Part shown: piece by piece, positions 30,401-47,518 of the stretch | Position numbering within the stretch: position 1 is the first letter of the stretch | Layout: the number at the start of each line of letters is the position of its first letter | Translations under genes and position numbers: made by a program | NCBI RefSeq assembly: GCF_002954725.1 | Contig: NZ_MSCQ01000001.1 | Location: forward strand, 334,059 to 398,058 | Origin: Photobacterium phosphoreum | GTDB lineage: Bacteria; Pseudomonadota; Gammaproteobacteria; Enterobacterales; Vibrionaceae | Direction: 5' to 3' | Length of the DNA stretch: 64,000 bases | Notes under the pieces: generated by a model | What the model was told of the DNA's origin: nothing | What the model saw: only the letters and a program-made list of their open reading frames with translations | Database searches by the model: none

Positions 30401-31281
30401 ATAAAATCTCAAATAATCTGTTATTAATATTTTAAAAAAACAATATATTAAATGATGATGAATATATATAGTAATATCTAACAAATAAATAGAAATAAGC
30501 TTTTAATATTGATTTAATTAATGGTTGATATAATAAGGTTTTTATTTTTTATCATGGTTTATATAAGTAAATGTATTATTAAGTATTAAATTACAACCAA
30601 TAAGTATAAGTATTTATTATTGCTGTTATATGTATTTCTTTTTCATTAGATTAATATTGATTAAGGTCTGTGTAACAATGCATTTGTCTTGTGAATGTGT
30701 ATTGGTCTATATATATTATTGCTTGTGTTTACGATTATTTTTAGTACTTAAAATATTTTTTTTATTTTAATTTTTTTTTTGATTTTAATTTATTGTTAGT
30801 GATTACTATCCTTTATTTTATTGTTTTTATTGGTTTTTATTTTTTATTTTGATTTTTCGGGTTAATTCAAAAGATTTAAATGGTGTTGGTTTATTATTTT
30901 CTTTACTGTAGACATGTTTAAAAACAATTGTATGAGTGGAAATTAATTAACCATTAAACGTTTATTGGTTAATGAATTTTATTATTAAATGTAATTGTTA
31001 ATTAAGTGCCATATATACATCTTTAATTTCGATGGTTTTTATATGGTTATAAATAGATTTAACACGGAAAAATAAAAGGTGAGATAAGGTAAAGCAAATG
31101 AGGGGCTGTAACCTTAGGGCGGTAGCGTATTTAATCATTAGTATATATCTTAATTATTTGTCTGTATGACTGCTCATCGTAAAAGTAAATAATGACTTAG
31201 GCGTAATTAGATACTCTTATTGTTTACTCAAAAAATTTTCAAAATTTCCTTTTAGTTAACCATATCGGATTGAAATGATTC
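30401..31281. other. Very AT-rich leader of the polysaccharide locus
   Basis: 881 bases without a supported gene, dominated by A/T with long T-runs (for example around 30760-30790). It includes the JUMPstart/ops element near its end. The promoter of the locus must lie here, but I cannot place it. Such composition often attracts H-NS type silencers, which is inference. Confidence 0.6.
31101..31129 (+). promoter_or_regulatory. JUMPstart/ops element (RfaH recruitment)
   Basis: GGCGGTAGCGT (31118-31128) matches the ops core GGCGGTAGNNT. It is preceded by AGGGGCTGTAACCTTA, which resembles the rest of the JUMPstart sequence. It lies about 153 bases before the Wzc-like gene. RfaH bound at ops suppresses early termination in long polysaccharide operons. 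The motif is seen; RfaH control is inferred. Confidence 0.85.
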
Positions 31282-33399
31282 ATGACTGCCATTAGTAATA
31301 AACAAGTAAAACCCACTTCGACAGCGAATGAAGAAATCGACTTAGGTAAGATTTTTGGTGTTTTGCGAGATAGTAAAAAATCTATTCTTGCCATTACCAT
31401 TGTCTTTACTTTACTAGGTCTGATTTATTCTGTTTTTGCTACTCCTATTTATAGATCTGATGTATTGATTCAAGTTGACTCTAAAACCGATGGCTCTTCT
31501 ACGTTTGGAGAGGCAATGACAACAGAGTTCTCTACTGAATCATCAGCAGTTACTGAAATGGAGTTAATTAAGTCTCGTCGAGTGATCGGTAAAGCTGTCG
31601 ACAAACTAAATTTAACTACCTCTGTTGCTCCAGATTACTTACCGCTTATTGGTAAAGGATTAGCACGGTTAACGCATAGTCAGAGTAATGCAACAGTTGC
31701 ACATTTTACTATGCCAGAGGATGCACAAAATAATATTTATCAGTTGAAAATTATCAATGTAGATACTGGTGAATTTGTAGTTACTGATGAAGATAATAGT
31801 AATATCAAGCTGAAGGGCTTTGTTGGACAAGCTATTAAAGATCAAGGTTACAGTTTATTAGTAACAGCGTTAACAGGTGCTAATAATGATACCTTTACGG
31901 TGAAAAAGCTGCCTCGCTTTGATGTTATTGCTTACTACCAAAAATCGTTAGCGGTGGCTGAAGAAGGTAAAGATACTGGTATCATTGAGGTGTCATTAAA
32001 AGGTCAAGATCGATTAAAGACACAAAAGATTCTCAATAGTATCAGTGAAAGTTACTACAAAATGAATGCTGATCGTGCAGCAGCAAGCGCAGATAAGAGC
32101 TTAGAGTTTTTAAATGCACGGCTGCCTAAAATAAAAGCAGAATTAACCAGTGCCGAAGATAAGCTTAATAAGTACCGTGAAGCTAATCAATCAGTTAACA
32201 TAGAAATGCAAGCGAAGTCATCACTTGATGAGCTAGTTGCTTTAAATGGTCAAATTAATGAATTAAGCTTCCAAGAAGCTGATATTTCACGTAGTTACAC
32301 CAAAGAGAATCCACTTTACAAAACATTAATTGAAAAACGTAATGATTTACGAGCTCAAAAAGTACGCTTAACGCAAAAAATTGATCAAATGCCAGAAAAG
32401 CAACGTGAAATTATTCGTTTAACACGTCATGTTGATGTTAACCAACAGACATACATGCAGATTCTTAATAAGATTCAAGAGCTTGATATTGTTAAAGCAA
32501 GTAGCTCTGCAAGCGTACAAATTATTGATACAGCATCTAGTAGCATTAAACCTGTTGCACCTAATCGCATCATGTTGGTTATTGCACCTGCAATTTTAGG
32601 TTTAATTCTGAGTGTATTAATCGCTTTATTCCGCGTTATTTTAAATAATACTGTCGTTGATCCTCAGCAACTAAAAGCAATAGGTCTTCCTGTTTTTGCT
32701 TTGGTACCAAAAACACCAAAAGCAAAGAAAGTATCAAAGACTATTTTGGCTGAAATGGAGTCAGGCGATGTTTCAATAGAAGCACTGCGTACGCTACGTA
32801 ATCGTATATTATTAGCAATGAATAATGCGAATAACAATACAGCGTTATTCACAAGTGCGAGTTCAAGCACTCATTCAGGTAAAACATTTGTAATTACTAA
32901 CGTTGCGGCATTAATGGCTGAAGCGGGTAAGCGAGTATTAATTATCGATGCTGATATGCGTAAAGGTAAAATTGCATCAGCACTTAATGGTAAGCAAGCA
33001 AATGGGTTATCTGAATTACTGAGTGGTAAAAATGATCTTAAAGCAGTAGTAAAAACATCATTAATTACTAACCTTGATTATATCTCTGGTGGTGAAACTT
33101 CAGATTCACCGGCTGAATTGTTAATGCATAATGAATTTAAAACACTCTTAGCCTGGGCGAGTGAACATTACGATGTTGTAATTGTGAATTCAGCGCCAAT
33201 ATTATCTGTTGTTGATGCTTCGATTGTGGGTGCTGCAGTTGGTACTACGGTAATGGTTGGTTGTTATGGTGCTGATACGTTAAAAGATGTCGAACAAGCA
33301 AAACAAAAGTTTGAAGATAATGATGTTGAAGTTGATGGCTTTGTTTTGAACAATGTTATTAAGAAGACAAGTAATCAAGAAATTTTTAAAAAATATTAA
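31282..33399 (+). CDS. Wzc-like polysaccharide co-polymerase / degenerate tyrosine autokinase
   Basis: 705 residues. The N-terminal Wzz domain has membrane helices at about residues 36-55 and 430-450, a long periplasmic coiled coil between them, and a C-terminal cytoplasmic BY-kinase domain. EALRTLRNR (ExxRxxR) and LIIDADMRKG (Walker A') are intact. Walker A is SSSTHSGKT (K534), lacking the usual first glycine. The Walker B position reads VVIVNSAP, with N636 in place of Asp. The C-terminus ends EIFKKY with no tyrosine cluster. Chain-length control and export are likely; kinase activity is doubtful. First gene after ops; no wza or wzb nearby. Confidence 0.88.
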   Translation: MTAISNKQVKPTSTANEEIDLGKIFGVLRDSKKSILAITIVFTLLGLIYSVFATPIYRSDVLIQVDSKTDGSSTFGEAMTTEFSTESSAVTEMELIKSRRVIGKAVDKLNLTTSVAPDYLPLIGKGLARLTHSQSNATVAHFTMPEDAQNNIYQLKIINVDTGEFVVTDEDNSNIKLKGFVGQAIKDQGYSLLVTALTGANNDTFTVKKLPRFDVIAYYQKSLAVAEEGKDTGIIEVSLKGQDRLKTQKILNSISESYYKMNADRAAASADKSLEFLNARLPKIKAELTSAEDKLNKYREANQSVNIEMQAKSSLDELVALNGQINELSFQEADISRSYTKENPLYKTLIEKRNDLRAQKVRLTQKIDQMPEKQREIIRLTRHVDVNQQTYMQILNKIQELDIVKASSSASVQIIDTASSSIKPVAPNRIMLVIAPAILGLILSVLIALFRVILNNTVVDPQQLKAIGLPVFALVPKTPKAKKVSKTILAEMESGDVSIEALRTLRNRILLAMNNANNNTALFTSASSSTHSGKTFVITNVAALMAEAGKRVLIIDADMRKGKIASALNGKQANGLSELLSGKNDLKAVVKTSLITNLDYISGGETSDSPAELLMHNEFKTLLAWASEHYDVVIVNSAPILSVVDASIVGAAVGTTVMVGCYGADTLKDVEQAKQKFEDNDVEVDGFVLNNVIKKTSNQEIFKKY

Positions 33400-33468: not shown

Positions 33469-34368
33469 ATGAGAAAAATAATAAATTTTATTTGTCGACA
33501 CTGTAAATTTGCACGCGACTTAAGATATAACATTGGTTTTATACGTGCAAATAGATATATACCATGCTTTAAAAACCCACAAACATTTAATGAAAAAATA
33601 AACTACAGAAAGAATCATCCTAAAAATGAATTGTTTAGTGTTTGTGCTGATAAAATAAAAGCAAAGGAATATGTTGCTGATAAATTATCTTCAGATTACG
33701 TAATAGAAAATTATTATGTAGGCGATAATATTACCACTGAGAAAATTAAAGAAATTTTAGTTGAAAAAGGTGACCTGTTATTAAAAGCAAATCATAATTC
33801 TGGGCCTGTTTATCTCATTAAAGTTGATGCAACAGATGATGAGATTCAACGTAAAGTTGATGATGTAAATAATCAACTTAAAAAAGATTACGGTAAGCAG
33901 CTTAATGAACCTTGGTATAGTGATATAACCCCAAGGGTATTAGTTGAGAAAAGGTTATCACCTCAAGAAGGTGAAACGGATATTCGAGATTATAAGTTCC
34001 ATGTTTTTAAACAAAATGATGGTAGCTTTGAAATTATCTTACAAATAGATTTTGATCGTAGTGGTCATCATTCTCGTTCTTTCTTTGATGATGAGTTAAA
34101 TTGGCTCCCATTCTATACGGTATATAATGATACTGGTGTTTGTATTAAAACATCAATTGAAAAGCCTAAGAATTATGATGTAATGTTAAATGCTGCCAAA
34201 ACATTAGCTGAACCTTTTGGTTATGTACGTGTTGATTTTTATAATGTTGATGGCGTTATTTATTTTGGAGAGCTAACGTTTGCTCAAGGAAGTGGGCGTT
34301 CTAGACTTACTAATAGAGCTTATGACCTTTGGTTAGGGCGTTTATGGCAAGTTGATCCATCATACTAA
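33469..34368 (+). CDS. TupA-like ATP-grasp protein (copy 1)
   Basis: 299 residues. The conserved order of the TupA-like ATP-grasp family is present: FNEKINYRK near the start, ADKIKAKEYV, the ATP lysine in LLKANHNSGP, VEKRLSPQEG, DYKFHVF, and a C-terminal metal/phosphate region with YVRVDFYN and YFGELTFAQGSG. TupA acts in teichuronic acid synthesis in Bacillus; the reaction of the family is not established, though an acid-amine or acid-hydroxyl ligation is expected from the fold. Its position, just after the Wzc-like gene, places it in surface polysaccharide synthesis. A paralogue is at 42112. Cytoplasmic; no signal. Confidence 0.82.
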   Translation: MRKIINFICRHCKFARDLRYNIGFIRANRYIPCFKNPQTFNEKINYRKNHPKNELFSVCADKIKAKEYVADKLSSDYVIENYYVGDNITTEKIKEILVEKGDLLLKANHNSGPVYLIKVDATDDEIQRKVDDVNNQLKKDYGKQLNEPWYSDITPRVLVEKRLSPQEGETDIRDYKFHVFKQNDGSFEIILQIDFDRSGHHSRSFFDDELNWLPFYTVYNDTGVCIKTSIEKPKNYDVMLNAAKTLAEPFGYVRVDFYNVDGVIYFGELTFAQGSGRSRLTNRAYDLWLGRLWQVDPSY

Positions 34369-34518
34369 AATTTATATTTAATAAATATAAGGTTAAAATA
34401 GCTAGAGCGCTTTTTTCATTATATTTTTGAATGTAAATATAAATAATACATTGCTAAATTTGAATTCAAATTTGGCAATGTATTGTGCTAGTTAACTTTA
34501 TACTGTGATTAAATAAAT

Positions 34519-35730
34519 ATGATATCAAAGACTAAAGTAAGCCAAGTTTTATTTTGGATATCTGTCGCAATTGTATCCATTGGTTTTATGGAAAATATTA
34601 ATGCGTTAAGATATAACCTGATGGTACCTTTATTAGGACTTGGATGGGTATTACACTTTTTTTATAGTGATAATAAAATTGATAGAAACAGTACGAAGTC
34701 ATTTATTTTGGTTTCATTACTCATTGCACTTATTGCGTTACCTTCACTTTTAAAAATATACCCCCACGCACATAACTTAGTGAAATATACTTATTATAGT
34801 TTTGTCGTTGGTATGATGGTAAAGATTTTTTCCGCATACAGTATCTTTGTCTTCCTTAAAGGAGATATTAATAAATTAGAAAAAATGATCAAATATGTCA
34901 TTATTTTTAATTTATCAATGTTTTTTCTACAATTTGTCGTCGTGTTCCCTACCGGGTATTACATTGATCCATTAAGAGCAATAACGGGTGAGCCGTCACG
35001 TTATGGTGGTGGTATAGTTATTCCTGTTATTGGTCAAGTTTATCGTTGTACTGGTTTCTTTGAAGAACCATCAACTTATGCTGGATTTATCGTTGTTCTT
35101 TTAGCATCTAAACTTTATTTAAATCCAAAAGTTGATAAGGTTGTACTGGTCGCTGCTGCATCAATTATTCTTTCATTTTCAGTTGCTGCGATTGCTTATG
35201 GCTTAATTGTTATTGGTTATTTCTTTTTAAGAAGTAAGCCTAGTTACTTAAAATATATCTTATTTATATTATCTCCTGTACTTGTAGCTGCGGTTATTAG
35301 TATTGCACTTGATCGTTTAACCTCTCAAGGAGGTAATGCTCAAGATATTCGTGATAACTTAAATACGATGGTGTTTGCTCAGCAGTTACCGATTTTAATT
35401 TTTGGTAATGGAGCACTAGGTATTATGCCTGCTGCTGCTTATGTGATGAATAGTACTGGAGCTATCTATCAACTAGGTATCGCATCATTAAATGATAACG
35501 GCATGTGGTTGTTTTTTATCATTAAATTTGGTTTTTTTGGACTTGTAGCGATAACGTCTTATTTGTTTTTTAAAACCAAATCGACGCTGAACCGAATTAT
35601 GTTATTCGTTATATTATTAACTAAACTAAGTTTTCTATATTTTGGGTTTGTATTCTATTTCTTCTTAATATTTAACAATAAACCGGTGTTAGAAGATGAT
35701 CAAAGTAACATCGAAAGTGATGTTGATTAA
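34519..35730 (+). CDS. Wzy-like polysaccharide polymerase
   Basis: 403 residues with about ten hydrophobic segments and a larger periplasmic loop in the middle. RCTGFFEEPSTYAGFIVVLL resembles the glutamate-proline motif of O-antigen/EPS polymerases and ligases. Wzy joins lipid-linked repeat units in the periplasm. Family sequences are very divergent, so assignment rests on topology, motif and position between Wzc-like and Wzx-like genes. The C-terminal tail is acidic. No SD of note; 150 bases after the previous gene. Confidence 0.78.
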   Translation: MISKTKVSQVLFWISVAIVSIGFMENINALRYNLMVPLLGLGWVLHFFYSDNKIDRNSTKSFILVSLLIALIALPSLLKIYPHAHNLVKYTYYSFVVGMMVKIFSAYSIFVFLKGDINKLEKMIKYVIIFNLSMFFLQFVVVFPTGYYIDPLRAITGEPSRYGGGIVIPVIGQVYRCTGFFEEPSTYAGFIVVLLASKLYLNPKVDKVVLVAAASIILSFSVAAIAYGLIVIGYFFLRSKPSYLKYILFILSPVLVAAVISIALDRLTSQGGNAQDIRDNLNTMVFAQQLPILIFGNGALGIMPAAAYVMNSTGAIYQLGIASLNDNGMWLFFIIKFGFFGLVAITSYLFFKTKSTLNRIMLFVILLTKLSFLYFGFVFYFFLIFNNKPVLEDDQSNIESDVD

Positions 35731-35748
35731 ATAAAGGAAGCTATTTTT

Positions 35749-37137
35749 GTGAATATTCGAGAGTTCAAGGCTTTTTTTTGGAGCTTTGTCGATGGTGTTG
35801 GCTCTCAAGGAAGCCAATTAATTATTACGATCATGTTAGCTCGGTTACTTACCCCTGCTGATTTTGGTGTGATTGGTTTAATTTCAGTCGTAGTCTATTT
35901 GTCTAATGTTATTGGTAATGGTGGCTTAAATAATAGTTTAATTAGAAAGGCCAAAGTTTCGGCTGATGATTTCACTTCTGTTTTTGTCTTTAATATTACT
36001 GTTGGTATATTGCTTTATGCAATTATCTTTTTCTCATCAGGTTTTTTAGCGCATTTTTTAAAATTACCAGAAGCAGAAGTTTATCTTAAGGTTTATGCGT
36101 TAAGTATTATATTTACGTCCTTTGAACAAATTCAACGGGTGACATTAACATTAGATCTTAATTTTAGAACACAAGCTAAAATCACCTTGTTTTCAGTGAT
36201 CTTTAGTGGTGTTATTGCGTTAATTTTAGCTCATTCTGGCTTTGGTGTGTGGGCGCTGATCATTCAAACTGTTGTATTATCATCGGTTCGATGTGTTATT
36301 TTTTGGTGTGTTATTCGTTGGAAACCAACAGGACAATTTAAATGGCCATTATTACTAGAGCATCTTAATTTTGGTTATAAGTTGTTACTCGGTAATTTTG
36401 TTGATGTTGCATATCGATATATGTTTAATTTAGGTATTGGTAAATTTTATTCTGTTACTGATCTTGGTTTTTATAATCAAGCGACTAAATTGACAGAAGT
36501 ACCATCAATGACTATAACGTCTGTTGTTCGTCGTGTTAATTACCCTATCATCAGTAAATTAAGACATAATAATAAATGTTATTTTGGTAACCTAATTAAT
36601 ATTGCTTCTTATATTATAAGTGTTTATTTACCTGTTTCATTATGGTTATCATTTAATTCACATGATATTATTTTAAAACTACTCGGTGAACGATGGGTTG
36701 GCGCTAGTTTATTTTTATCAATATTATCTCTAGCTTTTTTTGTTGTGCCATTATCAAACTTATTTGGTAATATATTATCAGTTGAAGGACGTACTGATTT
36801 ATATTTAAAAATAAGATTATCGGTTAAGTTAATTCTTGGTATAATGTTTGTTCTGATTCATTCTTATGGTATTCATGTGGTTTTATACTTCATAATATTT
36901 GCAACCGTATTCGAATGGTTTGTTAACATTGTTATTTCTCATAAGTATTTTAAATTCCCTGTTTTAAAGTATATAAAAAGAATGGTTTTAATTATGGTTC
37001 CTATCATAATTTCAAGTGTATTAATTAACTATTCTATTAATATAAATTCAATTGTTGGGGGTTTAGCTGTGAAGTTAATATTAAGTATGATTGTACCTGC
37101 TGGTATTTTATTCTTATTATCAAAAGAAAAAGTTTAA
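35749..37137 (+). CDS. Wzx-like oligosaccharide flippase (MOP superfamily)
   Basis: 462 residues with about 12-14 membrane segments. The start FFWSFVDGVGSQGSQLIITI and ARLLTPADFGVIGL are typical of the WzxC/polysaccharide-transporter branch, as is GFYNQATKLTEVPS in the middle. It moves undecaprenyl-linked repeat units to the periplasmic face. GTG 35749 has AAGGAAG upstream. 18 bases after the polymerase gene, so probably coupled. A heptanucleotide repeat lies directly downstream. Confidence 0.88.
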   Translation: MNIREFKAFFWSFVDGVGSQGSQLIITIMLARLLTPADFGVIGLISVVVYLSNVIGNGGLNNSLIRKAKVSADDFTSVFVFNITVGILLYAIIFFSSGFLAHFLKLPEAEVYLKVYALSIIFTSFEQIQRVTLTLDLNFRTQAKITLFSVIFSGVIALILAHSGFGVWALIIQTVVLSSVRCVIFWCVIRWKPTGQFKWPLLLEHLNFGYKLLLGNFVDVAYRYMFNLGIGKFYSVTDLGFYNQATKLTEVPSMTITSVVRRVNYPIISKLRHNNKCYFGNLINIASYIISVYLPVSLWLSFNSHDIILKLLGERWVGASLFLSILSLAFFVVPLSNLFGNILSVEGRTDLYLKIRLSVKLILGIMFVLIHSYGIHVVLYFIIFATVFEWFVNIVISHKYFKFPVLKYIKRMVLIMVPIIISSVLINYSININSIVGGLAVKLILSMIVPAGILFLLSKEKV

Positions 37138-37145
37138 TCATAACG

Positions 37146-37180
37146 ATTATTTATTATTTATTATTTATTATTTATTATTT
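37146..37180. repeat. Heptanucleotide repeat (ATTATTT) x5
   Basis: Five perfect head-to-tail ATTATTT units between the flippase stop and the next gene's ATG (37197). The repeat ends 16 bases before that ATG and no Shine-Dalgarno sequence is visible there. Confidence 0.95.
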
Positions 37181-37196
37181 CCCTCATGGTTTTATT

Positions 37197-38264
37197 ATGA
37201 CACAAAAAAGTATAGATTTATTTATTGATGCAATAAGAAAAGGTGGTGCTGAACGAGTTTGTGTTAACTATGCAAACTATTTAGCAGATAATAACTATAG
37301 AGTACGTATTGTTCTTTTTCGAGAGTATGAAGATTCTTACATTAACCTGTTAGATGACCGTATAGAATTAGTATATTTACATTGTCATAATGCATCTTCG
37401 ATGCTGAAAAAAATAAAAGCCACAAACTTTGTATTTGCTAGTACTGTGATTACATTTAATCATCAAATATCAATTGCATTGTGGTTTTATGATCGATTTA
37501 TCGATAAGACTAAATTTAAATTAATTGCTCGTAATGTCAATTTTCTTAGTCGAGATTTACATATTAGAAAAAACTCGATCAAGAAGTTTGTGACAATATT
37601 ATTGACAAAATTAGTCTATAAAAAAATCGATTATTTTATTGCACAATGTAATGATATGAAAGATGACATGGTAAGTTACCTTTCTATTCCTGAGAGTAAG
37701 ATTACGGTTATTTACAATCCTGTTTCAACCAGTATTTATAAACAACCAGATGCTAAAAAAGATATTGACCTATTATTTGTTGGTCGTATACAAAAACAAA
37801 AAGGTCTTGATTACCTAGCTAATGTACTCGATCTCGTTTCTCAAAAACGTCAGATTAAAGTGTGCATTATAGGTACCGGCGATCTTGAAACAGAACTTCA
37901 GAAAAAGTTAGATGAGATAACAAAACGTAATAATATTGAGGTTGAGCGCATATTAGCGACTGATGATGTAAACAGCTATTATAATCGTTCACGTATTACA
38001 ATTTTAACCTCATTATATGAAGGTTTTCCTAATGTATTAGCTGAATCGTTAACAGTAGGTACACCTGTTGTTTCTTTTGATTGTCCAAGTGGTCCTGCTG
38101 AAATCATTAATAATGGTATTAATGGTTATTTAGTTCCATGCTTTGACTGTGATGATTTTTCTAATAAAGTTATATCACTTTTAGATGATAATCAACTATC
38201 TGATATTAGGTACTTTAATAGCGAAAAGAGTTTTAACTTACTTGAAAAAGTAATAAAAAACTAA
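37197..38264 (+). CDS. Glycosyltransferase, GT4 type (first)
   Basis: 355 residues with the two-lobe GT-B pattern. The N-terminal acceptor-side lobe contains KGGAERVCVNYANYL. The C-terminal nucleotide-sugar lobe has LLFVGRIQKQKGLDYL and SLYEGFPNVLAESLTVGTP, where the EGFPNVLAE segment holds the EX7E glutamates of GT4 retaining enzymes. It adds one sugar of the repeat unit on the cytoplasmic side. Donor and acceptor are unknown. Translation start at ATG 37197 lies just after the ATTATTT repeat and lacks a clear ribosome site. Confidence 0.86.
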   Translation: MTQKSIDLFIDAIRKGGAERVCVNYANYLADNNYRVRIVLFREYEDSYINLLDDRIELVYLHCHNASSMLKKIKATNFVFASTVITFNHQISIALWFYDRFIDKTKFKLIARNVNFLSRDLHIRKNSIKKFVTILLTKLVYKKIDYFIAQCNDMKDDMVSYLSIPESKITVIYNPVSTSIYKQPDAKKDIDLLFVGRIQKQKGLDYLANVLDLVSQKRQIKVCIIGTGDLETELQKKLDEITKRNNIEVERILATDDVNSYYNRSRITILTSLYEGFPNVLAESLTVGTPVVSFDCPSGPAEIINNGINGYLVPCFDCDDFSNKVISLLDDNQLSDIRYFNSEKSFNLLEKVIKN

Positions 38265-38321
38265 CGCCATATTTAAATTTAAAAATCCTATAAATATAGT
38301 TTAGAACTAAATGAGAATAAC

Positions 38322-39476
38322 ATGAAGAAAGTTGTAATATTTGAGTTTTTTACAGGCAATATAGCAGGAGCACAAAAAGTCACATTAAATATCATTCCGA
38401 TGTTGAAGAAGAAATATGATGTTGTCATCTTTCAACGTCTAAATAATACTTTGTACAGTGATACTGTAAAAGAGTTTGGTGACACTAAAAAAATCCCATG
38501 TGAATCGTTGTTTACTAAGGTGTTTGGTACTGGTCGATTTGAGGGAACTAAAAAAACGCTAATGGATAAAGTTTATTTTATCCTTAATGTTTTATTCTTT
38601 AATGTGTTTTCTCTTTTTCATGTAATTAAAGAAAAGCCTGATTATACGTATACATACGATCCTCGTGGTTTTGTATTATCTTGTTTATTACTTAAATTGA
38701 CTAAAACTAAAGTTATTTGGCATCTACATAGTAAGTTAAGTTGTTCTGATAAAGTATCTAAAATAATGATGTCTTTTGTTGATGAAATTATTGTCCCATC
38801 GCAAAATATTAAAGATTCTTTACCCGATAATGATAAAGTAAAGGTCATTTATAATGGCTTTGATCTTAAACGAGTAATAGAAAAAAATCCGAATGACGAT
38901 GTGTTAAATTTATCATTCGTTGGCAGCTTAGTTGCTCATAAAGGTCTTCATAACATATTATTGGCTTTAAAAGACATTAACCATCCAAATGTTAAACTTC
39001 ACGTTTATGGTTCATATTCTCATTCTAATCCATTATTAAATTATGAGGACTATATTAATAGTATAATTACTGACCTCTCTCTACAAGATAAAGTTATATT
39101 TCATGGCTGGTGTTCCGATGTTATACCTGAAATAATGAAGTCTGATTTATTAATTTTCCCATCAGTGATAAACCAAACATTATCATTTAAAGGGGAATCA
39201 ATGAAGGTTAATTCAAGTGAAGCATTACCAACAATAGTGATTGAAGCACTTAGTGTTGAAACTCCTGTAGTTGCGGTAAATACACCTGGTATATCAGAAA
39301 TTGTAGTTGAAAAATCAGATGGTATCATTATTAATGAATCAGAACCGACATTGATAGCTGATGCCGTGAATAAAATTTTGGATAATAACGATTTTTATCA
39401 TCCTGATAGTAGTTTAATTATTAATAAATTTAGTTTAGAAGAAATGCAACAACATATATATGGCACGTTTAAGTAA
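38322..39476 (+). CDS. Glycosyltransferase, GT4 type (second)
   Basis: 384 residues. N-terminal FEFFTGNIAGAQKVTLNIIP has the GA(E/Q)KVT acceptor-lobe motif. NLSFVGSLVAHKGLHNIL, VIFHGWCSDV and PTIVIEALSVETPVVAVNTPGISE form the GT4 donor lobe. The segment between about residues 270 and 300 (QTLSFKGESMKVNSSEALPT) is longer than usual before the EX7E motif. Probably adds a further sugar to the lipid-linked unit. Specificity unknown. It ends before an AT-rich gap of 227 bases. Confidence 0.84.
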   Translation: MKKVVIFEFFTGNIAGAQKVTLNIIPMLKKKYDVVIFQRLNNTLYSDTVKEFGDTKKIPCESLFTKVFGTGRFEGTKKTLMDKVYFILNVLFFNVFSLFHVIKEKPDYTYTYDPRGFVLSCLLLKLTKTKVIWHLHSKLSCSDKVSKIMMSFVDEIIVPSQNIKDSLPDNDKVKVIYNGFDLKRVIEKNPNDDVLNLSFVGSLVAHKGLHNILLALKDINHPNVKLHVYGSYSHSNPLLNYEDYINSIITDLSLQDKVIFHGWCSDVIPEIMKSDLLIFPSVINQTLSFKGESMKVNSSEALPTIVIEALSVETPVVAVNTPGISEIVVEKSDGIIINESEPTLIADAVNKILDNNDFYHPDSSLIINKFSLEEMQQHIYGTFK

Positions 39477-39703
39477 TATAATATCTAACACCTAGTTAAT
39501 TATATAAATTAGCAAATTATTGAATTAATTAAAATAATCACTGTGTCTTTAATATAAGCAGTAATAATTCAATGAGACAGGTTTATGATATTAGATTTAT
39601 TATATTTAATCAGTATGTAGATGCAACTTAAGTACTGATGATTTTTAATCATATAACTTTATTTTACTACAATTATTTGTGTTTAATAAAGAAAGGTTTT
39701 TTA

Positions 39704-40714
39704 ATGAAAAATAGTTTTTTACGACGTCGAGTTTTTGATCTTCGTGTAGGAGTAAAAGATTTACTTTGGGGAATAAAAAACCCTGAATCGTTTAAACGGA
39801 AAAATAATCTTAGCCCTATCATGGGTAGATTTTCATCCTATAAATTTGAGCTTCTTTCTGGTGTAAAGTCAGATGATTATCTTTCTGATAGTTTTTATTT
39901 TAACCGTGTTGAGGGTAAAATAAACAACTTTGAGTTGAGTGATTATTTTAACCATAAAGGTTATTTACCTAGTATTTTACAATCTAATGCTATTCCATTA
40001 TTGATCAATTCTATCTCAGGTGTTGTTTATGATGCTGACGATAAGGTCATTGATGTCAGCGCTGTTGTAGATAGACTGCGTAACGATCCTGTTAATGATG
40101 AATTTGTTATTAAGAGAAGTGTCGGTACTGGCGGTGGTGAAAGTGTTGAAATTGGTAACGCTGATAAAATTATTCCATTTTTCAATCTTTACTATCAGAA
40201 GAAATATGATTTTGTTATTCAGCCGCTAGTGAATCAACATGATAAGTTAGCTGAGTTTAATCCTACATCACTTAATACTGTACGTATTATGACATTAGCT
40301 TATGGTGGCAATGTTCATCATGTTTCAAGTATGGTGAAGATGGGGGGACTAGGTGGCAGAATTGATAATGTCAGTGCTGGCGGTTTATGTATTGGTATTA
40401 AAAATGATGGCTCATTAACAAGCTTTGGCTTTGACTGCTATTTGAATAAAACTACCCGTCATCCGCAAACTAATCTTGAGTTTCCAGATCATTATGAAGT
40501 GCCTTACTTTCATGAAATGATTGATGTTGTTAAAGCAAAACATCAATTATTTAAGAGTCACGGTATTATCTCATGGGATGTTAGTGTTGATAATGATGGT
40601 TACGTTACAATTGTCGAATGCAATACAGCATGGAGCGGTTTAGAGTCACATCAAGCATTCCATGGGCCGGTATTTGAAGATCACATGGAATATATAAATA
40701 ATATTAACTCATAG
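39704..40714 (+). CDS. Sugar-transfer-associated ATP-grasp protein (copy 1)
   Basis: 336 residues. The family motifs are intact: the ATP lysine and glycine loop in VIKRSVGTGGGESVEIG, DFVIQPLVNQHDKLAEFNPTS then NTVRIM, GGRIDNVSAGG, SHGIISWDVSVDNDG and the metal-binding E-C-N in VECNTAWSG. The family (ATPgrasp_ST) occurs in polysaccharide clusters; its chemistry is unproven but the fold ligates an acid through an acyl phosphate. ATG 39704 has AAAGG upstream; the open frame to 39638 was discarded. It is closely related to the next gene, a tandem duplicate. Confidence 0.83.
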   Translation: MKNSFLRRRVFDLRVGVKDLLWGIKNPESFKRKNNLSPIMGRFSSYKFELLSGVKSDDYLSDSFYFNRVEGKINNFELSDYFNHKGYLPSILQSNAIPLLINSISGVVYDADDKVIDVSAVVDRLRNDPVNDEFVIKRSVGTGGGESVEIGNADKIIPFFNLYYQKKYDFVIQPLVNQHDKLAEFNPTSLNTVRIMTLAYGGNVHHVSSMVKMGGLGGRIDNVSAGGLCIGIKNDGSLTSFGFDCYLNKTTRHPQTNLEFPDHYEVPYFHEMIDVVKAKHQLFKSHGIISWDVSVDNDGYVTIVECNTAWSGLESHQAFHGPVFEDHMEYINNINS

Positions 40715-41088
40715 TATTAGATTATTTTATTATATAGCATGTAAATTATCTTTTTTGATAAACATTTAGGCTTAATATTATTTATTTATTCTGAATTTAG
40801 ATATTAGATGAAATTATTAGTTAATTTATTGGGAACTAAATGCTTATAATAGTAATAAATAATGTTGAGTTATTATTGTGTTTGTCGATATTTAAAGGCA
40901 TTAAAAAATTGATGTAAATAACGCTTATAGGTTTTCTTTTTTTTATTCGTTTTTTATATATTATGATAGTGTCATTGTTTTCATACTTTAATCCAATAGT
41001 AATGTTGATATATTAATTAATAACTACCTGTGTATAATGCAGTGTTTTTCATTACATTAATAATAAAATTTTTATATAAGGTTTAAGA
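40715..41088. other. AT-rich spacer between the two ATP-grasp paralogues
   Basis: 374 bases, no gene. A perfect TATAAT (41033-41038) stands 51 bases before the next start but without a good -35, so it is only a possible internal promoter. The size is unusual inside an otherwise compact operon. Confidence 0.5.
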
Positions 41089-42102
41089 ATGAAAGATAGC
41101 TTTGCTCGTCGCTTTGCTTATGAGGTTTTGGCTAATGTCAGGTTTATTAAATATGGCATAAAAAATCCAAAATCACTAAAATGTAAAAATATGCTCAGTC
41201 CATTAACTGGACGCTTTTGGAATTACCGCTATCAAAGTGTTTGTGGTATTGAATCAGATAAATATTTATCTGAACCTTATTTTTACAATAAATTAGAAGC
41301 AAAAGTTAACGATTTTGGTTTGAATAAATTTTTTGACCACAAAGGCTATCTTTCAAATATCTTAAATAGTAATACTATACCAACAATTGCAAATTGTATT
41401 GCTGGAACTATTTATGACAATGACAATGAAGTTATTGTCTTTAATGATTTAGTTTTATTGCTGGAGCAGCTGCCATTGAATTCTGAATTTGTTATCAAAC
41501 GAAGTATTGGTACAGGTGGTGGCAATAGTGTTGAAATTGGTGTTGCAAATCATATAGTTCCATTTTTGAAAACGTATTTTAATGCTAAATATGATTTTGT
41601 AATTCAACCAGTTATAACTCAGCATGATGATCTTGCTATTTTTAACCCATCATCGATTAATACTGTAAGGGTAATGAGCTTTGCTTATCAAGGTAATGTT
41701 TATCCTGTTTCAACAGTATTAAGAATGGGTAATGGTGGTCGTATAGATAATTCTGCTGCAGGTGGTATATCTATTGGTGTCGATAATACTGGTAAGTTGC
41801 GTGATTTTGCTATTGATCACGATTTTAAAAAATATTATCAACATCCAGCAACAGCAACAGCAACTAAATTTTCAGATGGCTATTTTATTCCTTATTTTAA
41901 TGAGCTATTAGATCTTGTTAAAGATAAGCATAGATGTTTAAAAAGCCACGGTATTGTTTCATGGGATCTTACAGTAGATAATGACGGAAATATGTCAATT
42001 ATTGAATATAATGCGGGGTGGGGAGAAATTAACTTTCACCAAGCAAATAATGGTCCTATATTTGAAAACCATATTAAACATATAAAAAGTATTAATAAGT
42101 GA
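41089..42102 (+). CDS. Sugar-transfer-associated ATP-grasp protein (copy 2)
   Basis: 337 residues, collinear with the protein at 39704 along its whole length: NMLSPLTGRFWNYRYQS, VIKRSIGTGGGNSVEIG, DFVIQPVITQHDDLA, GGRIDNSAAGGISIG, SHGIVSWDLTVDNDG and IEYNAGWGEINFHQ. The catalytic E-x-N is kept. The sequences have diverged in many surface positions, so the duplication is not recent or the copies have different substrates. ATG 41089 is preceded by AAGG. A GTG-started TupA-like gene follows after nine bases. Confidence 0.83.
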   Translation: MKDSFARRFAYEVLANVRFIKYGIKNPKSLKCKNMLSPLTGRFWNYRYQSVCGIESDKYLSEPYFYNKLEAKVNDFGLNKFFDHKGYLSNILNSNTIPTIANCIAGTIYDNDNEVIVFNDLVLLLEQLPLNSEFVIKRSIGTGGGNSVEIGVANHIVPFLKTYFNAKYDFVIQPVITQHDDLAIFNPSSINTVRVMSFAYQGNVYPVSTVLRMGNGGRIDNSAAGGISIGVDNTGKLRDFAIDHDFKKYYQHPATATATKFSDGYFIPYFNELLDLVKDKHRCLKSHGIVSWDLTVDNDGNMSIIEYNAGWGEINFHQANNGPIFENHIKHIKSINK

Positions 42103-42111
42103 GGGTGTAAA

Positions 42112-42984
42112 GTGGAAAGTCTAGAATTTAGATTGTTCTCAAAGATCATCTCTAAAATACCAATTAAAACACGATTACAGATTTTGTTTTTTCGTAAATT
42201 TAAACGATTTATCAATTTTGATAATCCTCGGACATATAACGAAAAAATTCAGTGTAAAAAGATTGCAGATCGAAGTGAATTATTAACGATTGGTGCTGAT
42301 AAAATAAAAGCTAAAGATTTCGTTAAAGAGATTGTACCTGAATTATATTTACCCAAAATGCTATGGGTAGGAGATTCACCTGAGTCACTTGATGATTTAG
42401 ATTTATCAACATTACCTCAGGACTATGTATATAAAGCTAATCATACCAGTCAGACGATTGAAATTATTCGTCATGGTAATCATCTTGATAAATCTAAGAT
42501 GAAAGATTTAGCAAAAGATTGGTTGAAAAAAGATCAGTCTGGAGCATTAGGTGAGTGGGCATATGAAAATATACCACCACGGGTATTTATTGAAGAATAT
42601 CTTGAGTTTAATGGTCATGAACCAGATGATTACAAACTCTATGTTTTCAATGGTAAAGTCGGTTTTATTCAGTTAGATTCTGGTCGTTTTACCAGTATGA
42701 CTCGTAACCTTTATGATGCAAACTGGGAAGAACTTGGATTTGAATATCATCATCCTCGTTGTCATCCGGCTCCACCAAAGCCAGAGTATATTGATGAAAT
42801 GATCCGTATTGCCGAAAAGATTGGTCAACAATACGATTTTGTTCGGGTTGATTTGTATTTTTACGACGGAAAAGTAACGTTCAGTGAACTGACAATGTAT
42901 TCAGCATCTGGATTTTTAACGATGCCTGATGATTGGGATCTAAAAATCGGTGATCTGTGGACACAAAATTATAAGGTGAAATAA
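42112..42984 (+). CDS. TupA-like ATP-grasp protein (copy 2)
   Basis: 290 residues, the same family as the protein at 33469: NPRTYNEKIQCKK, GADKIKAKDFVKE, VYKANHTSQTIEII, DDYKLYVFNGKVGFI, and FVRVDLYFYDGK with TFSELTMYSASG. The start GTG 42112 has GAGGGTG seven or so bases upstream. The stop codon overlaps the epimerase start by one base (TAATG). Context suggests it modifies the same polysaccharide whose uronic acids the next gene and Ugd supply; reaction unproven. Confidence 0.84.
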   Translation: MESLEFRLFSKIISKIPIKTRLQILFFRKFKRFINFDNPRTYNEKIQCKKIADRSELLTIGADKIKAKDFVKEIVPELYLPKMLWVGDSPESLDDLDLSTLPQDYVYKANHTSQTIEIIRHGNHLDKSKMKDLAKDWLKKDQSGALGEWAYENIPPRVFIEEYLEFNGHEPDDYKLYVFNGKVGFIQLDSGRFTSMTRNLYDANWEELGFEYHHPRCHPAPPKPEYIDEMIRIAEKIGQQYDFVRVDLYFYDGKVTFSELTMYSASGFLTMPDDWDLKIGDLWTQNYKVK

Positions 42985-43991
42985 TGAAATATTTAGTGAC
43001 TGGTGCTGCAGGTTTTATTGGCGCAAAAGTAAGTGAAGAACTATTAAAAAAAGGTCATGATGTTATTGGTATTGATATCATCAATGATTACTACGACGTA
43101 GCATTAAAAGAAGCACGTTTAGCACCACTGTTAAAAGACAGTAAGTTTGTCTTCAAGAAAATCGATATTGCTCATTCACAAGATGTGCTAGATCTATTTG
43201 CTGAGGAAAAATTTGATCGTGTTGTTCATCTTGCAGCTCAAGCGGGTGTGCGTTACTCGATTGAAAATCCAATGGCATACGCTGATAGTAACCTTGTCGG
43301 TCATCTTAATATTTTAGAAGGTTGCCGTCATAATAATGTTGGCCATCTAGTTTATGCGTCATCAAGCTCTGTCTATGGCCTTAATGCTAAAACACCATTC
43401 GCAACCTCAGATAGCGTGGATCACCCAGTATCATTGTATGCTGCAACTAAAAAATCTAATGAGTTAATGGCGCATTCGTATTCACATTTATACAATATGC
43501 CAACGACAGGATTACGTTTCTTTACCGTGTATGGGCCTTGTGGTCGTCCTGATATGGCACCTTATATTTTCACTAAGAAAATTTTGGATGGCGAGACAAT
43601 TGATATTAACAACAATGGTGATATGTGGCGCGACTTTACCTACATTGATGACATTGTTGAAGGTGTGATTCGTATTGCTGATGTTGTGCCTGTTCGTAAC
43701 GATGAGTGGACTGTTGAAGCCGGTACACCAGCATCAAGCTCTGCACCATACAGCATTTATAACATCGGTCACGGTAGTCCAATTAACTTAATGGATTTTA
43801 TTAAAGCCATTGAAGCAGAATTAGGCATTGAAGCGACTAAAAACTTCCGCGGTATGCAACCTGGCGACGTTTATCAAACGTATGCTGATACTCAAGACTT
43901 ATTTAAAGTAACCGGCTATACCCCTAAAGTCGGCGTTAAAGAAGGCGTTGCGAACCTCGTTCGTTGGTATAAAGAATTTTATAATAAGTGA
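42984..43991 (+). CDS. NAD-dependent epimerase, UDP-glucuronate 4-epimerase-like
   Basis: A 335-residue extended short-chain dehydrogenase/reductase. TGAAGFIG at the N-terminus binds NAD; the catalytic Ser is in YASSSSVYG and the Tyr/Lys pair is Y152AATK. RFFTVYGPCGRPDMA is diagnostic of the UDP-GlcA/UDP-GalA epimerase group (CapI-like). It would turn UDP-glucuronate, from the Ugd gene at 45118, into UDP-galacturonate. The residue preference within the group cannot be settled by eye. Confidence 0.87.
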   Translation: MKYLVTGAAGFIGAKVSEELLKKGHDVIGIDIINDYYDVALKEARLAPLLKDSKFVFKKIDIAHSQDVLDLFAEEKFDRVVHLAAQAGVRYSIENPMAYADSNLVGHLNILEGCRHNNVGHLVYASSSSVYGLNAKTPFATSDSVDHPVSLYAATKKSNELMAHSYSHLYNMPTTGLRFFTVYGPCGRPDMAPYIFTKKILDGETIDINNNGDMWRDFTYIDDIVEGVIRIADVVPVRNDEWTVEAGTPASSSAPYSIYNIGHGSPINLMDFIKAIEAELGIEATKNFRGMQPGDVYQTYADTQDLFKVTGYTPKVGVKEGVANLVRWYKEFYNK

Positions 43992-43995
43992 TCCC

Positions 43996-45108
43996 ATGGC
44001 AAAGATAGCTATATCAGCCAATACGAGTTGGTATTTATTTAACTTTAGAAAGAACACTATATTAGCGTTAATCGAAGCGGGTCATACTGTGACTGCAATT
44101 TCTCCTCGAGATGATTATTCAATAAAACTTGAACAATTAGGGGCGCGATTTATTCACATTGATATTGATCAAGGTGGTACAAACCCGGTTAACGATGCTA
44201 AAACTTATTTCGCTTTTAATGCTATTTTTAAGGCTGAAAAGTTTGATGTTGTATTAAACTTTACGCCTAAAAATAACATTTATGCCACTGTGGCAGCGTC
44301 AAAAAATGGTACTAAAGTCATTAATAATATCGCTGGTTTAGGTATTATCTTTATTAATGAAAATATAACTGCGAAAATTGCTCGAGGTTTATATAAGTTT
44401 AGTCAACGTCGTGCTGATAAAATCTTCTTTCAAAATGAAGATGATCGCGGCCTATTCATCGACAATAAGTTGGCGGATATTTCAAAGACGGATCGTTTAC
44501 CTGGTTCAGGTGCTGATCTCTCGCGTTTTGCAATATCACCAGCAACTGACGATGGTGTGGTAAGTTTTCTGTTAGTTGCACGTATGCTGTATGACAAAGG
44601 TATTGGTCATTATGTTGAAGCTGCTCGCGAATTGAAGCAACGTTATGGCGATAAAGTACAATTTAATTTACTTGGCTTTCTAGATGTTAATAATCCTTCA
44701 GCAGTATCAAGAGCTGAAATGAAAGTATGGGTTGATGAAGGTATCGTTAATTATCTTGGTTTTTCAGACACTGTTGAAGAAGAGATAGCTAAAGTAGATT
44801 GTATGGTATTACCTTCTTTTTATCGTGAAGGTGTACCTAAGTCATTACTTGAAGCGGGCGCTATGGGTAAACCGATTGTGACTACCGACAATGTTGGTTG
44901 CCGCGAAACCGTTGATCATGGTGTTAATGGCTATCTTTGCCAAACACGTTCAACAGCAAGCCTAGTGGAAATGCTGACTAAAATGATTGAGCACACTCAT
45001 CAAGAACGTCTTGATATGGGTTTAGCGAGTCGACAAAAAATCGAAAATGAATTCGATGAAAAAATTATAATCAATAAATACCTAATGGCTATTGAAAGCA
45101 TTATCTAG
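43996..45108 (+). CDS. Glycosyltransferase, GT4 type (third, PglA-like)
   Basis: 370 residues. N-terminal ANTSWYLFNFRKNTI, then IAGLGIIF and the donor lobe ending YREGVPKSLLEAGAMGKPIVT with the EX7E glutamates and DNVGCRETV. This is the PglA/CapM-like GT4 group that often adds an amino sugar or uronic acid to a lipid-linked acceptor. ATG 43996 is chosen, because the alternative frame start (43948) would overlap the epimerase. No clear ribosome site; the epimerase stop is four bases upstream, so coupling is likely. Confidence 0.85.
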   Translation: MAKIAISANTSWYLFNFRKNTILALIEAGHTVTAISPRDDYSIKLEQLGARFIHIDIDQGGTNPVNDAKTYFAFNAIFKAEKFDVVLNFTPKNNIYATVAASKNGTKVINNIAGLGIIFINENITAKIARGLYKFSQRRADKIFFQNEDDRGLFIDNKLADISKTDRLPGSGADLSRFAISPATDDGVVSFLLVARMLYDKGIGHYVEAARELKQRYGDKVQFNLLGFLDVNNPSAVSRAEMKVWVDEGIVNYLGFSDTVEEEIAKVDCMVLPSFYREGVPKSLLEAGAMGKPIVTTDNVGCRETVDHGVNGYLCQTRSTASLVEMLTKMIEHTHQERLDMGLASRQKIENEFDEKIIINKYLMAIESII

Positions 45109-45117
45109 AGAGATTTC

Positions 45118-46284
45118 ATGAAAATTACTATTGCAGGTACAGGCTATGTAGGTCTGTCAAATGCCATGTTATTGGCACAAAATAACGAAGTTATTGCTGT
45201 CGACATTATCGAAGAAAAAATAAAGCTTCTTAATAATAAAAAATCACCGATTGTTGACCGTGAAATTGAATATTTCTTAGAAAATAAAGAACTTAACTTT
45301 GTTGCAACACTTGATAAGCAAATGGCTTATAAAGATGCAGAGTATGTCATTATTGCAACACCGACTGATTACGATACCGTTCATAACTATTTTAATACTT
45401 CTTCTGTAGAAGCGGTAATTCAAGATGTATTAGCGATTAATCCTAATGCTGTAATGGTTATTAAATCAACAGTACCAGTGGGTTACACTAAAGAAGTTAA
45501 AGAGAAATTTGGTTGTGATAATATCATGTTCTCACCTGAATTCTTACGTGAAGGTCGTGCATTGTACGATAACTTATACCCATCACGTATTATCGTTGGT
45601 GAGAAAAGTGAACGTGCTGAAGTATTTGCTGGGTTATTACAGCAAGGCGCGATTAAAGAAGATATTGATGTACTGTTTACTGATTCAACAGAAGCTGAAG
45701 CGGTTAAATTGTTCTCAAATACTTATTTAGCAATGCGTGTTGCTTACTTTAATGAGCTAGATACTTACGCTGAAACAAATAACTTGAATGCTCGTCAAAT
45801 TATTGAAGGTGTAGGCTTAGACCCTCGTATTGGTAATCACTACAATAACCCATCATTTGGCTACGGCGGTTACTGCTTACCGAAAGATACCAAGCAATTA
45901 CGTGCTAACTACCGTGACGTACCAAATAGTATTATTGGCGCTATTGTTGATGCGAATACCACCCGTAAAGACTTTATTGCTGATTCAATTATCAGTCGTC
46001 ATCCAAAGCGTGTTGGTGTCTATCGTTTGATCATGAAGTCTGGTTCGGATAATTTCCGCGCTTCAAGTATTCAAGGTATTATGAAGCGTATTAAAGCGAA
46101 AGGTATTGAAGTTGTTATTTACGAACCAGTACTAACAGAAGATGAATTCTTCCACTCAAAAGTCATTAAAGATTTAAATCAATTTAAACAAGAGTGTGAT
46201 GTTATTGTTTCTAATCGTATGGCTGAAGAATTGAGTGATGTCGCTGAAAAAGTTTACACTCGCGATATATTCCAAGAAGATTAA
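45118..46284 (+). CDS. ugd: UDP-glucose 6-dehydrogenase Ugd
   Basis: 388 residues. Oxidises UDP-glucose to UDP-glucuronate. N-terminal [11 protein letters not shown] binds [15 protein letters not shown] and [15 protein letters not shown] carry the catalytic cysteine C253 and its lysine. Length is that of the enzymes found in capsule loci. It directly follows the third glycosyltransferase. It supplies the uronic acid for the epimerase upstream. Last gene before a 145-base gap and WecA. Confidence 0.95.
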
Positions 46285-46429: not shown

Positions 46430-47518
46430 GTGTTTGTTATGTTTACTGGATATTGTTTTATCTTTATCTTGTCATTGATTTTTTTATTTATGATGAGAGT
46501 TATAGCAAAAAGAGTGGGTTTAGTTGATAAACCTAATGCACGAAAACACCATAAAGGTGCGATCCCATTAGTGGGTGGTATATCTATTTTTGCTGCTATA
46601 TCAGTTACCTTTTTATCATTTCTACCTCACACTCGTGATTTATATTTATATTTAAGCTGTGCTTTAGTGCTGATTGTTCTTGGGGCATTTGATGATCGTT
46701 TAGATATAAGTTTTAAAATACGCTTAATTGTCCAAGCTGGTATTTCTATTGCAATGATTGTGATTGGAGGCCATAGCTTACATAATCTTGGTTTTTTAAT
46801 GGGCAGTGAAACGATTCAACTATCGGTTTTCTCTAGCTACATTATTACTATTATTGGTGTTATTGGTGCGATTAACGCATTTAATATGGTTGATGGTATT
46901 GATGGATTATTAGGTGGCTTAGCTGCTGTTACTATTGGTTCGATGGGCGTTGTGTTCTACTTATCAGGAAATACTTACCTGGGTACAATGTGTGGCTTGA
47001 TTGTGACCGCAATTATTCCTTACATCATGCTTAACCTTGGTATTCCGTTTGGCACGAAAGCAAAAGTCTTTATGGGTGATGCGGGAAGTATGTTTATTGG
47101 CTTTACCGTTGTATGGCTATTGATTAAAGCAACCCAAGATCCAGAATCATATGCTTTCAAGCCTGTAACCGCATTATGGTTAATTGCGATTCCACTTATG
47201 GATATGGCAACAATTATGATCCGTCGTATTCGTAAAGGCCAATCGCCATTTAAGCCAGATCGTGAGCATTTACACCATATTTTTCAACGCATTGGATTAT
47301 CGTCTCGTCAAACATTATTGACTATTTGTGCTATGGCATTGACTTGTTCTGTGATTGGTTTGTGGAGTGATTATGCGGGTATTGCTGAATCAACAATGTT
47401 TGTTGCTTTCTTGGTGATGTTTGTTTGTTACTTTGCCACTATTAGTCATATTTTCCGTATTGTTACTTTTGTACGTAATATCTTAGGGATTAAGACGAGT
47501 AAAGTTAGCACTGATTAA
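46430..47518 (+). CDS. wecA: Undecaprenyl-phosphate GlcNAc-1-phosphate transferase WecA-like
   Basis: 362 residues with about eleven membrane helices. Asp-rich loops are present: GAFDDR, NAFNMVDGIDGL (catalytic), VFMGDAGSMFIG and the HLHHIF motif in PDREHLHHIFQRIGLSSRQ. It links a GlcNAc- or similar 1-phosphate to undecaprenyl phosphate, starting the repeat unit. The start is uncertain between GTG 46430 and ATG 46439, with no good ribosome site at either. A 145-base gap after ugd leaves room for its own promoter. Confidence 0.9.
   Translation: MFVMFTGYCFIFILSLIFLFMMRVIAKRVGLVDKPNARKHHKGAIPLVGGISIFAAISVTFLSFLPHTRDLYLYLSCALVLIVLGAFDDRLDISFKIRLIVQAGISIAMIVIGGHSLHNLGFLMGSETIQLSVFSSYIITIIGVIGAINAFNMVDGIDGLLGGLAAVTIGSMGVVFYLSGNTYLGTMCGLIVTAIIPYIMLNLGIPFGTKAKVFMGDAGSMFIGFTVVWLLIKATQDPESYAFKPVTALWLIAIPLMDMATIMIRRIRKGQSPFKPDREHLHHIFQRIGLSSRQTLLTICAMALTCSVIGLWSDYAGIAESTMFVAFLVMFVCYFATISHIFRIVTFVRNILGIKTSKVSTD

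Follow-up and report, generated by a model that had tools for sequence, protein, structure and literature searches.

Four ATP-grasp enzymes in a Photobacterium polysaccharide locus most likely attach amino acids to acidic sugars

Why should a single polysaccharide locus hold four ATP-grasp enzymes? The question is raised by a 64,000-nucleotide stretch of Photobacterium phosphoreum DNA, hereafter the window, in which thirteen same-direction genes encode, in order, a Wzc-type protein, TupA1, a Wzy-like polymerase, Wzx, the glycosyltransferases GT4a and GT4b, ST1, ST2, TupA2, an epimerase, GT4c, Ugd and WecA; TupA1, ST1, ST2 and TupA2 are the ATP-grasp proteins. By our analysis, the most likely role of these four enzymes is to couple amino acids to acidic sugars of the polymer. 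We consider it probable that the locus makes a Wzx/Wzy-type polymer built from N-acetylglucosamine (GlcNAc) and galacturonic acid (GalA) in a GlcNAc-GalA3-type repeat, and that the ligases amidate its lipid-linked GalA with amino acids before export. By analogy, the product may be an amino-acid-decorated coat of a kind described chemically in a marine Vibrio.

The two TupA-like and two sugar-transfer-associated ATP-grasp genes named in an earlier note on this DNA were all found at the positions given there and recognized by Pfam models, above the gathering cut-offs of 25 bits for PF14305 (TupA-like) and 31.4 bits for PF14397 (ATPgrasp_ST):

33469..34368, + strand, TupA1, TupA-like ATP-grasp (P0002), PF14305 133.7 bits
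39704..40714, + strand, ST1, sugar-transfer-associated ATP-grasp (P0007), PF14397 110.2 bits, scanned as a longer open reading frame from 39638
41089..42102, + strand, ST2, sugar-transfer-associated ATP-grasp (P0008), PF14397 110.1 bits
42112..42984, + strand, TupA2, TupA-like ATP-grasp (P0009), PF14305 128.7 bits

The retention of the ATP lysine and the acidic metal ligands in all four proteins, also asserted in that note, was confirmed by alignment. K62, K106, E160, K176, D256 and E268 of TupA1, and K64, K108, E161, K175, D247 and E259 of TupA2, occupy positions that are invariant across 49 sequences, and the same holds across 17 sequences for K137, R194, D292, E305 and N307 of ST1 and K137, R194, D293, E306 and N308 of ST2. 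The tandem ST1 and ST2 are 51% identical. Over six to seven species the omega medians of the four genes were 0.05–0.12 (ST1, 0.07) with zero internal stops, and all four genes are under purifying selection. Broken genes or an assembly artefact were ruled out by the absence of stops, the low omega and synteny in separate genomes. When structures were predicted, the ATP-grasp ligase fold was found in both families, from models of two of the four proteins: the AlphaFold2 (AF2) model of ST2 (predicted local distance difference test score, pLDDT, 84.3) had ArgX (15.4) and RimK (15.3) as its top fold matches, with LysX also among the closest, and the TupA2 model was closest to D-Ala-D-Ala ligase. 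A search of the Protein Data Bank (PDB) with the TupA sequence gave no meaningful match.

The earlier note had suggested looking for the four-gene combination in other genomes. We found the full set, in the same order, in 6 of 52 Photobacterium genomes, the source genome included, each from a different species; in one of them (G005) the stretch read stops after Ugd. No other genome among the 329 Vibrionaceae examined combined two TupA with two ST genes. Six species holding all four genes in order, together with the omega values above, therefore indicate more than chance. A seventh genome, that of P. kishitanii, carries the same locus without TupA1, a natural deletion; tblastn of the 328 bases between its Wzc and Wzy reading frames revealed no trace of a TupA1 remnant. 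TupA genes occurred in 11 of the 52 genus genomes and 25 of the 329 family genomes, the ST profile matched in 10 of the 329 (three weakly), and Wzy homologues were present in 11 of the 329 (two weak), all nine strong ones within Photobacterium. Among 394 genomes of the order, Wzy gave two weak matches only, the window's own aside, and plasmid searches returned only relatives below 60% identity. Named TupA loci were taken as the best 80 of at least 558 confirmed, and within these only P. malacitanum and P. aquimaris (genomes G001 and G042) had loci with two genes of each family. Among the matches listed, the top named relatives of TupA2, at 94–97%, were in P. malacitanum CECT 9190T, P. aquimaris LC2-065 and P. 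kishitanii ATCC BAA-1194. Loci were read at about 20 kilobases (kb), which clips some gene clusters, and two contigs were shorter (L189, 12 kb; L240, 10.6 kb).

The idea that four ATP-grasps are a record number was refuted by Acetobacterium bakii (L131), with seven TupA-like genes within 20 kb; the polysaccharide locus that holds them also has a Ugd-family gene and encodes a CapI-like epimerase. Further ATP-grasp genes were also seen in the Photobacterium genomes. An orphan TupA gene, 61–63% identical to TupA2, occurs in all seven locus-bearing genomes (G000:C1:150460-151173, in L045 10419-11303; L046-L051); in L045, the one locus of these scanned for neighbouring genes, it sits between a lytic transglycosylase gene and a nucleoside triphosphatase (DUF84) gene. 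A further ST gene, 45–47% identical to ST1/ST2, was present in L052 (9728-10759), where a chitinase-type gene adjoins it and a gene for a VpsR-type regulator is a few kb distant, and in L054 (9627-10658), where the neighbours equal those of L052 in length. P. malacitanum has a tandem pair of ATPgrasp_ST-like genes, 22–24% identical to ST2 (L053 9377-11845), and akin to these are a pair in G042 and one gene in G005.

The polymer on which the ligases would act is suggested by the remaining genes of the set:

34519..35730, + strand, Wzy-like polymerase, nine hydrophobic segments plus context, no Pfam hit
35749..37137, + strand, Wzx flippase, PF13440 246.5 bits
37197..38264, + strand, GT4a glycosyltransferase, PF00534/PF13692/PF13439
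38322..39476, + strand, GT4b glycosyltransferase, PF00534
42984..43991, + strand, CapI-like epimerase, PF01370/PF16363
43996..45108 (longest open reading frame from 43948), + strand, GT4c glycosyltransferase, PglA-like, nearest solved relative 8dqd
45118..46284, + strand, Ugd, UDP-glucose 6-dehydrogenase, TIGR03026 338.8 bits (cut-off 189.8)
46430..47518, + strand, WecA-type GlcNAc-1-phosphate transferase, chain initiation, TIGR02380 491.7 bits (cut-off 326)

Family models bore out the Wzx, the three GT4 enzymes and the Ugd that the earlier note had listed as neighbours. Its Wzy stands on the hydrophobic segments and the context, with no Pfam match, and its epimerase for uridine diphosphate (UDP)-glucuronic acid (GlcA) was upheld as to family; its substrate is not settled by the NCBIfam models, none of the 25 shown matches (of 59) reaching the cut-off. 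WecA lies outside the range covered by that note and is nevertheless a member of the gene set. Ugd scored 700.6 bits against NF011631, under the cut-off of 757. In phmmer searches the epimerase matched 5u4q (6.8e-150) and 6zl6 (5.2e-46), and it would be a UDP-GlcA 4-epimerase supplying UDP-GalA. GT4c matched 8dqd (5.6e-41), an alpha-1,3-GalNAc transferase whose acceptor is a diphospho-undecaprenol sugar and which we take to be of the PglA type; GT4c is predicted to transfer alpha-GalA to GlcNAc-diphospho-undecaprenol. GT4 enzymes are retaining glycosyltransferases, and three alpha links are therefore expected from the three of them. When the thirteen genes were compared with family models, no aminotransferase, small-molecule kinase or serinol-type phosphatase family was matched, which makes ready-made amines such as amino acids the simplest supply.

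A polymer of the predicted kind has been described. The exopolysaccharide (EPS) of Vibrio alginolyticus CNCM I-4994 has the repeat [3)-alpha-GalA-(1-4)-alpha-GalA-(1-3)-alpha-GalA-(1-3)-beta-GlcNAc-(1-], in which the GalA beside GlcNAc (residue C) bears alanine (Ala), as alpha-GalA6Ala-(1-3)-GlcNAc, the third GalA (residue A) bears Ala (about 65%) or serine (Ser; about 35%), and the middle GalA (B) is free; the authors give both amino acids as D forms, D-Ala and D-Ser (PMC4663550). The earlier note had called such chemistry poorly described in Vibrionaceae, and this structure, with Ala and Ser amides on GalA, contradicts it. The product predicted for the Photobacterium locus resembles this EPS in its GlcNAc and GalA blocks, its amide-linked substituents, a WecA start, three alpha-GalA for three GT4 enzymes and a beta link made by Wzy. 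We found gene families for GlcNAc initiation, UDP-GalA supply, three retaining glycosyltransferases and Wzx/Wzy, the epimerase substrate and Wzy being presumptive assignments. Amino-acid-bearing uronic-acid polymers are also reported from Colwellia psychrerythraea 34H, with threonine on its capsule and Ala on its EPS and with inhibition of ice recrystallisation, and from Microbulbifer, with a D-Ala amide of N-acetylgalactosaminuronic acid (PMC5852497; PMC3210612). The likeness to Colwellia lies in a marine uronic-acid polymer with amino acids; ice-recrystallisation inhibition is reported for Colwellia only.

An enzymatic precedent comes from the HS:2 capsule of Campylobacter jejuni, where the TupA-like domain of Cj1438C forms an amide at C6 of GlcA with serinol phosphate or ethanolamine phosphate, and the next sugar is added only once GlcA has been amidated on the growing chain (PMC11800379). 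The likeness is one of family, a TupA-like ATP-grasp with a uronic-acid polysaccharide; whereas the domain in Cj1438C is fused to a glycosyltransferase, the Photobacterium TupA proteins stand alone and are accompanied by two ligases of another family. Together with the folds of TupA2 and ST2, this precedent makes amidation of a uronic-acid polymer by several ligases, as the earlier note had envisaged, the best-fitting reading.

On that reading WecA would start the repeat by placing GlcNAc on undecaprenyl phosphate, Ugd would make UDP-GlcA, the epimerase would convert it into UDP-GalA, and the three retaining GT4 enzymes would add GalA to the repeat. Since amidation precedes the next sugar in C. 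jejuni, we propose that the four ATP-grasps act in the cytoplasm, while the unit is still lipid-linked and has yet to be exported by Wzx. There they would activate C6 carboxylates of GalA as acyl phosphates and turn these into amides with amines, most probably common amino acids, for example Ala and Ser. The PglA-like nature of GT4c would suit it to making an alpha-1,3 link to the first sugar on the lipid, as at residue C of the CNCM I-4994 EPS, and the target of TupA2 is most likely this first GalA, set on GlcNAc by GT4c. The ST1/ST2 tandem and TupA1 may serve the other GalA residues, or attach different amino acids to one and the same residue. The amidated unit would then be exported by Wzx, and Wzy would join units through beta-GlcNAc.

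The coupling of TupA2 to GT4c was also seen beyond the four-ligase genomes. In the seven Photobacterium loci a TupA2 relative is found one gene away from GT4c, and in G017, Xenorhabdus and E. coli C it is the immediate neighbour of GT4c. We counted GT4c as strong at E up to 1e-187, a cut placed after the gap down to 1e-133 was visible; with this cut TupA was found in 13 of the 22 strong-GT4c genomes of the Vibrionaceae and in 12 of the other 307 (Fisher 3e-11), or 6e-6 when the seven-genome clade was counted once. At 1e-110 there were 29 GT4c genomes, 13 of them with TupA (counted by eye). Within the stretch read, a CapI-like gene was strongly matched in 20 of the 22 strong-GT4c genomes and Ugd was matched in 20 (split over two reading frames in L235, L237 and L241), suggesting that GT4c goes with UDP-GalA supply.

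Relatives of the pair carry fewer ligases. The locus of Xenorhabdus thuongxuanensis (L058) has the TupA2/GT4c pair at 63/56% identity, together with relatives of GT4a (46%), Wzy (40%), GT4b (37%), Ugd (70%) and the epimerase (65%); it shares the pair, ugd and the epimerase with Photobacterium but has two ATP-grasps in place of four. The genus genome G017 has TupA2-GT4c relatives and related backbone enzymes with one ATP-grasp. E. coli C and O8/O9-type strains (L201, L202, L242) have the pair at 54/51% with one ATP-grasp, annotated by NCBI as 'ATP-grasp fold amidoligase family protein'. Matches to part of the pair from Xenorhabdus occurred in 38 of 5426 E. coli genomes, and the TupA gene in 13 of 5426. 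These loci read rml-wzx-GT2-wzy-GT2-TupA-GT4 and then gnd; ugd and a 4-epimerase-type gene follow gnd, the latter incomplete in E. coli C itself. They resemble Photobacterium in having ugd and a 4-epimerase-type gene near the pair and differ in their rml genes and GT2 enzymes; given this proximity, a uronic-acid amide is predicted there too. The available part of the E. coli C paper gives no serogroup of known structure for the pair. Similar backbone enzymes were thus found with four, three, two or one ATP-grasps, and a backbone set that stays constant while the number of ATP-grasps changes is as expected of decorating enzymes.

Several observations weigh against a GalA polymer amidated with amino acids. 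The GT4c-TupA association was computed over genomes that are related to one another, with a threshold chosen after the values had been seen, and TupA was absent from 9 of the 22 strong-GT4c genomes. Of the best 80 named TupA loci, 53 measured 15 kb or longer, and of these 19 had a Ugd-family and 24 a CapI-like gene; among 18 other Vibrionaceae TupA loci 9 had a strong Ugd and 8 a strong CapI match, rates that cover TupA loci alone. A uniform rule that TupA means a uronic-acid polymer was not upheld by these counts, other TupA loci often being without uronic-acid genes, and the case for a uronic-acid polymer rests on the Photobacterium locus and its relatives, not on a rule for the TupA family. 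Another glycosyltransferase occupies the GT4b position in G012, where it matches GT4 Pfam models, in G053 and in P. kishitanii; GT4b varies among species, so the backbone may differ from one to another. The number of ligases, four, is greater than the three kinds of amide in the CNCM I-4994 EPS, where one GalA is free. The fold matches take in non-amino-acid ligases (biotin/pyruvate carboxylase, carbamoyl phosphate synthetase), and both the identity of the amines and the substrate of the epimerase are what we infer. In the literature, most subscription papers being out of reach, we found no assay of any ATPgrasp_ST enzyme and no assignment of its function; nor did we find a polymer structure from these Photobacterium species or, in the parts of sources available, a gene locus for the CNCM I-4994 EPS. 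With Wzy as the probe for that locus, no strong match was obtained beyond Photobacterium in the 329 family genomes.

A more specific form of amino-acid amidation, which we rate as less likely than not, gives each carboxyl position or amino acid its own dedicated ligase, yielding a fully and heterogeneously amino-acylated polymer or short peptides. TupA2 would then serve the first GalA, and ST1, ST2 and TupA1 the others or a second residue on the same amide. If this is true, ATPgrasp_ST would be a second family of uronic-acid amidoligases, and the coat of these Photobacterium species, which are cold-water organisms, could behave as do the Colwellia polymers that inhibit ice recrystallisation.

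It is unlikely that the ligases join other amines to the uronic acids, such as ethanolamine, serinol, their phosphates or polyamines, as in the C. jejuni capsule. The amines reported for the TupA-like domain there are indeed serinol phosphate and ethanolamine phosphate, but the known Vibrio polymer bears amino acids, and no gene for serinol or ethanolamine phosphate synthesis and no haloacid dehalogenase (HAD) phosphatase or other phosphate-removal gene was found among the thirteen locus genes, the rest of the genome, where supply genes could lie, not having been searched. Just as doubtful is the idea that one or more of the four ATP-grasps is redundant or stands outside decoration: P. kishitanii manages without TupA1, whereas the invariant residues, the low omega medians and the lack of internal stops apply to every one of the four.

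Slightly less probable still is that several ligases act successively on one uronic acid to build a short peptide side chain. To our knowledge no peptide-bearing polymer occurs in Vibrionaceae. The teichuronopeptide of alkaliphilic Bacillus, the namesake of TupA, combines a glutamate polymer with polyglucuronate; it has the ATP-grasp family name and a uronic-acid polymer in common with the Photobacterium locus, and a poly-glutamate synthetase was absent from the thirteen locus genes, the rest of the genome not having been searched. Successive ligation would accord with the resemblance of the ST2 model to ArgX, RimK and LysX, which extend carboxylates with amino acids, and with the retention of both members of the ST1/ST2 tandem. 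ATP-grasp peptide ligases encoded together in an operon are reported to act frequently in successive ligations, teichuronopeptides and the O-antigen being among the examples named (PMC4431377), but the V. alginolyticus polymer carries single residues (PMC4663550). Least plausible is N-acylation of a sugar amino group with a carboxylic acid, since, although the stretch read of many TupA loci contains neither a Ugd-like nor a CapI-like gene, the thirteen genes include no amino-sugar aminotransferase and the only likely amino sugar, GlcNAc, is already acetylated.

Uronic-acid polymers that bear amino acids have been characterized chemically in marine bacteria, but the genes that place each amino acid are unassigned in the literature we found. 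In the Photobacterium locus four candidate ligases stand together in a compact, syntenic set; a published structure is available for comparison (CNCM I-4994), and natural comparisons are offered by the three-ligase P. kishitanii and by G017, with its single ligase. Through it the function of ATPgrasp_ST becomes directly testable, and it provides marker genes for spotting such polymers in genomes.

The setting of the locus is that of a regulated surface polysaccharide operon. It lies between tRNA-Ala (29737) and tRNA-Arg (47719), flanked by gltX-type and flgT genes, and has a G+C content of about 28–38% (2-kb steps) versus mostly 38–45% across the remaining window. Two further features precede TupA1:

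31092..31129, + strand, JUMPstart element with ops core (ops 31118-31128), RfaH-dependent leader, Rfam RF01707 43.4 bits (cut-off 35)
31282..33399, + strand, Wzc/Wzz-type chain-length protein with AAA domain, Pfam Wzz, GNVR, WZC_N and AAA_31

The ops core at 31118 is exact (mean 0.00 in 100 shuffles), the leader motif GGCGGTAG..T was present in six of six related Photobacterium loci examined, and an RfaH gene scored above cut-off elsewhere in the same genome. A JUMPstart with ops ahead of the first gene and RfaH in the genome are what marks a JUMPstart/RfaH-controlled surface polysaccharide operon; the label 'RfaH-type' in the earlier note was apt, and the operon would be under this control. 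The Wzc-type protein has one tyrosine within its final 30 residues and is without the usual tyrosine-rich tail.

Finally, ST1 and ST2 are separated by a 374-base non-coding gap (40715-41088), for which Rfam gave no match to a known RNA family. A -10-like motif, GTGTATAATGCA, stands close to its 3' limit in four of five rows read and is absent from P. kishitanii. The gap is 70–85% identical over six Photobacterium loci, despite median synonymous divergence (dS) of 1.06 for ST1 and 0.73 for ST2.

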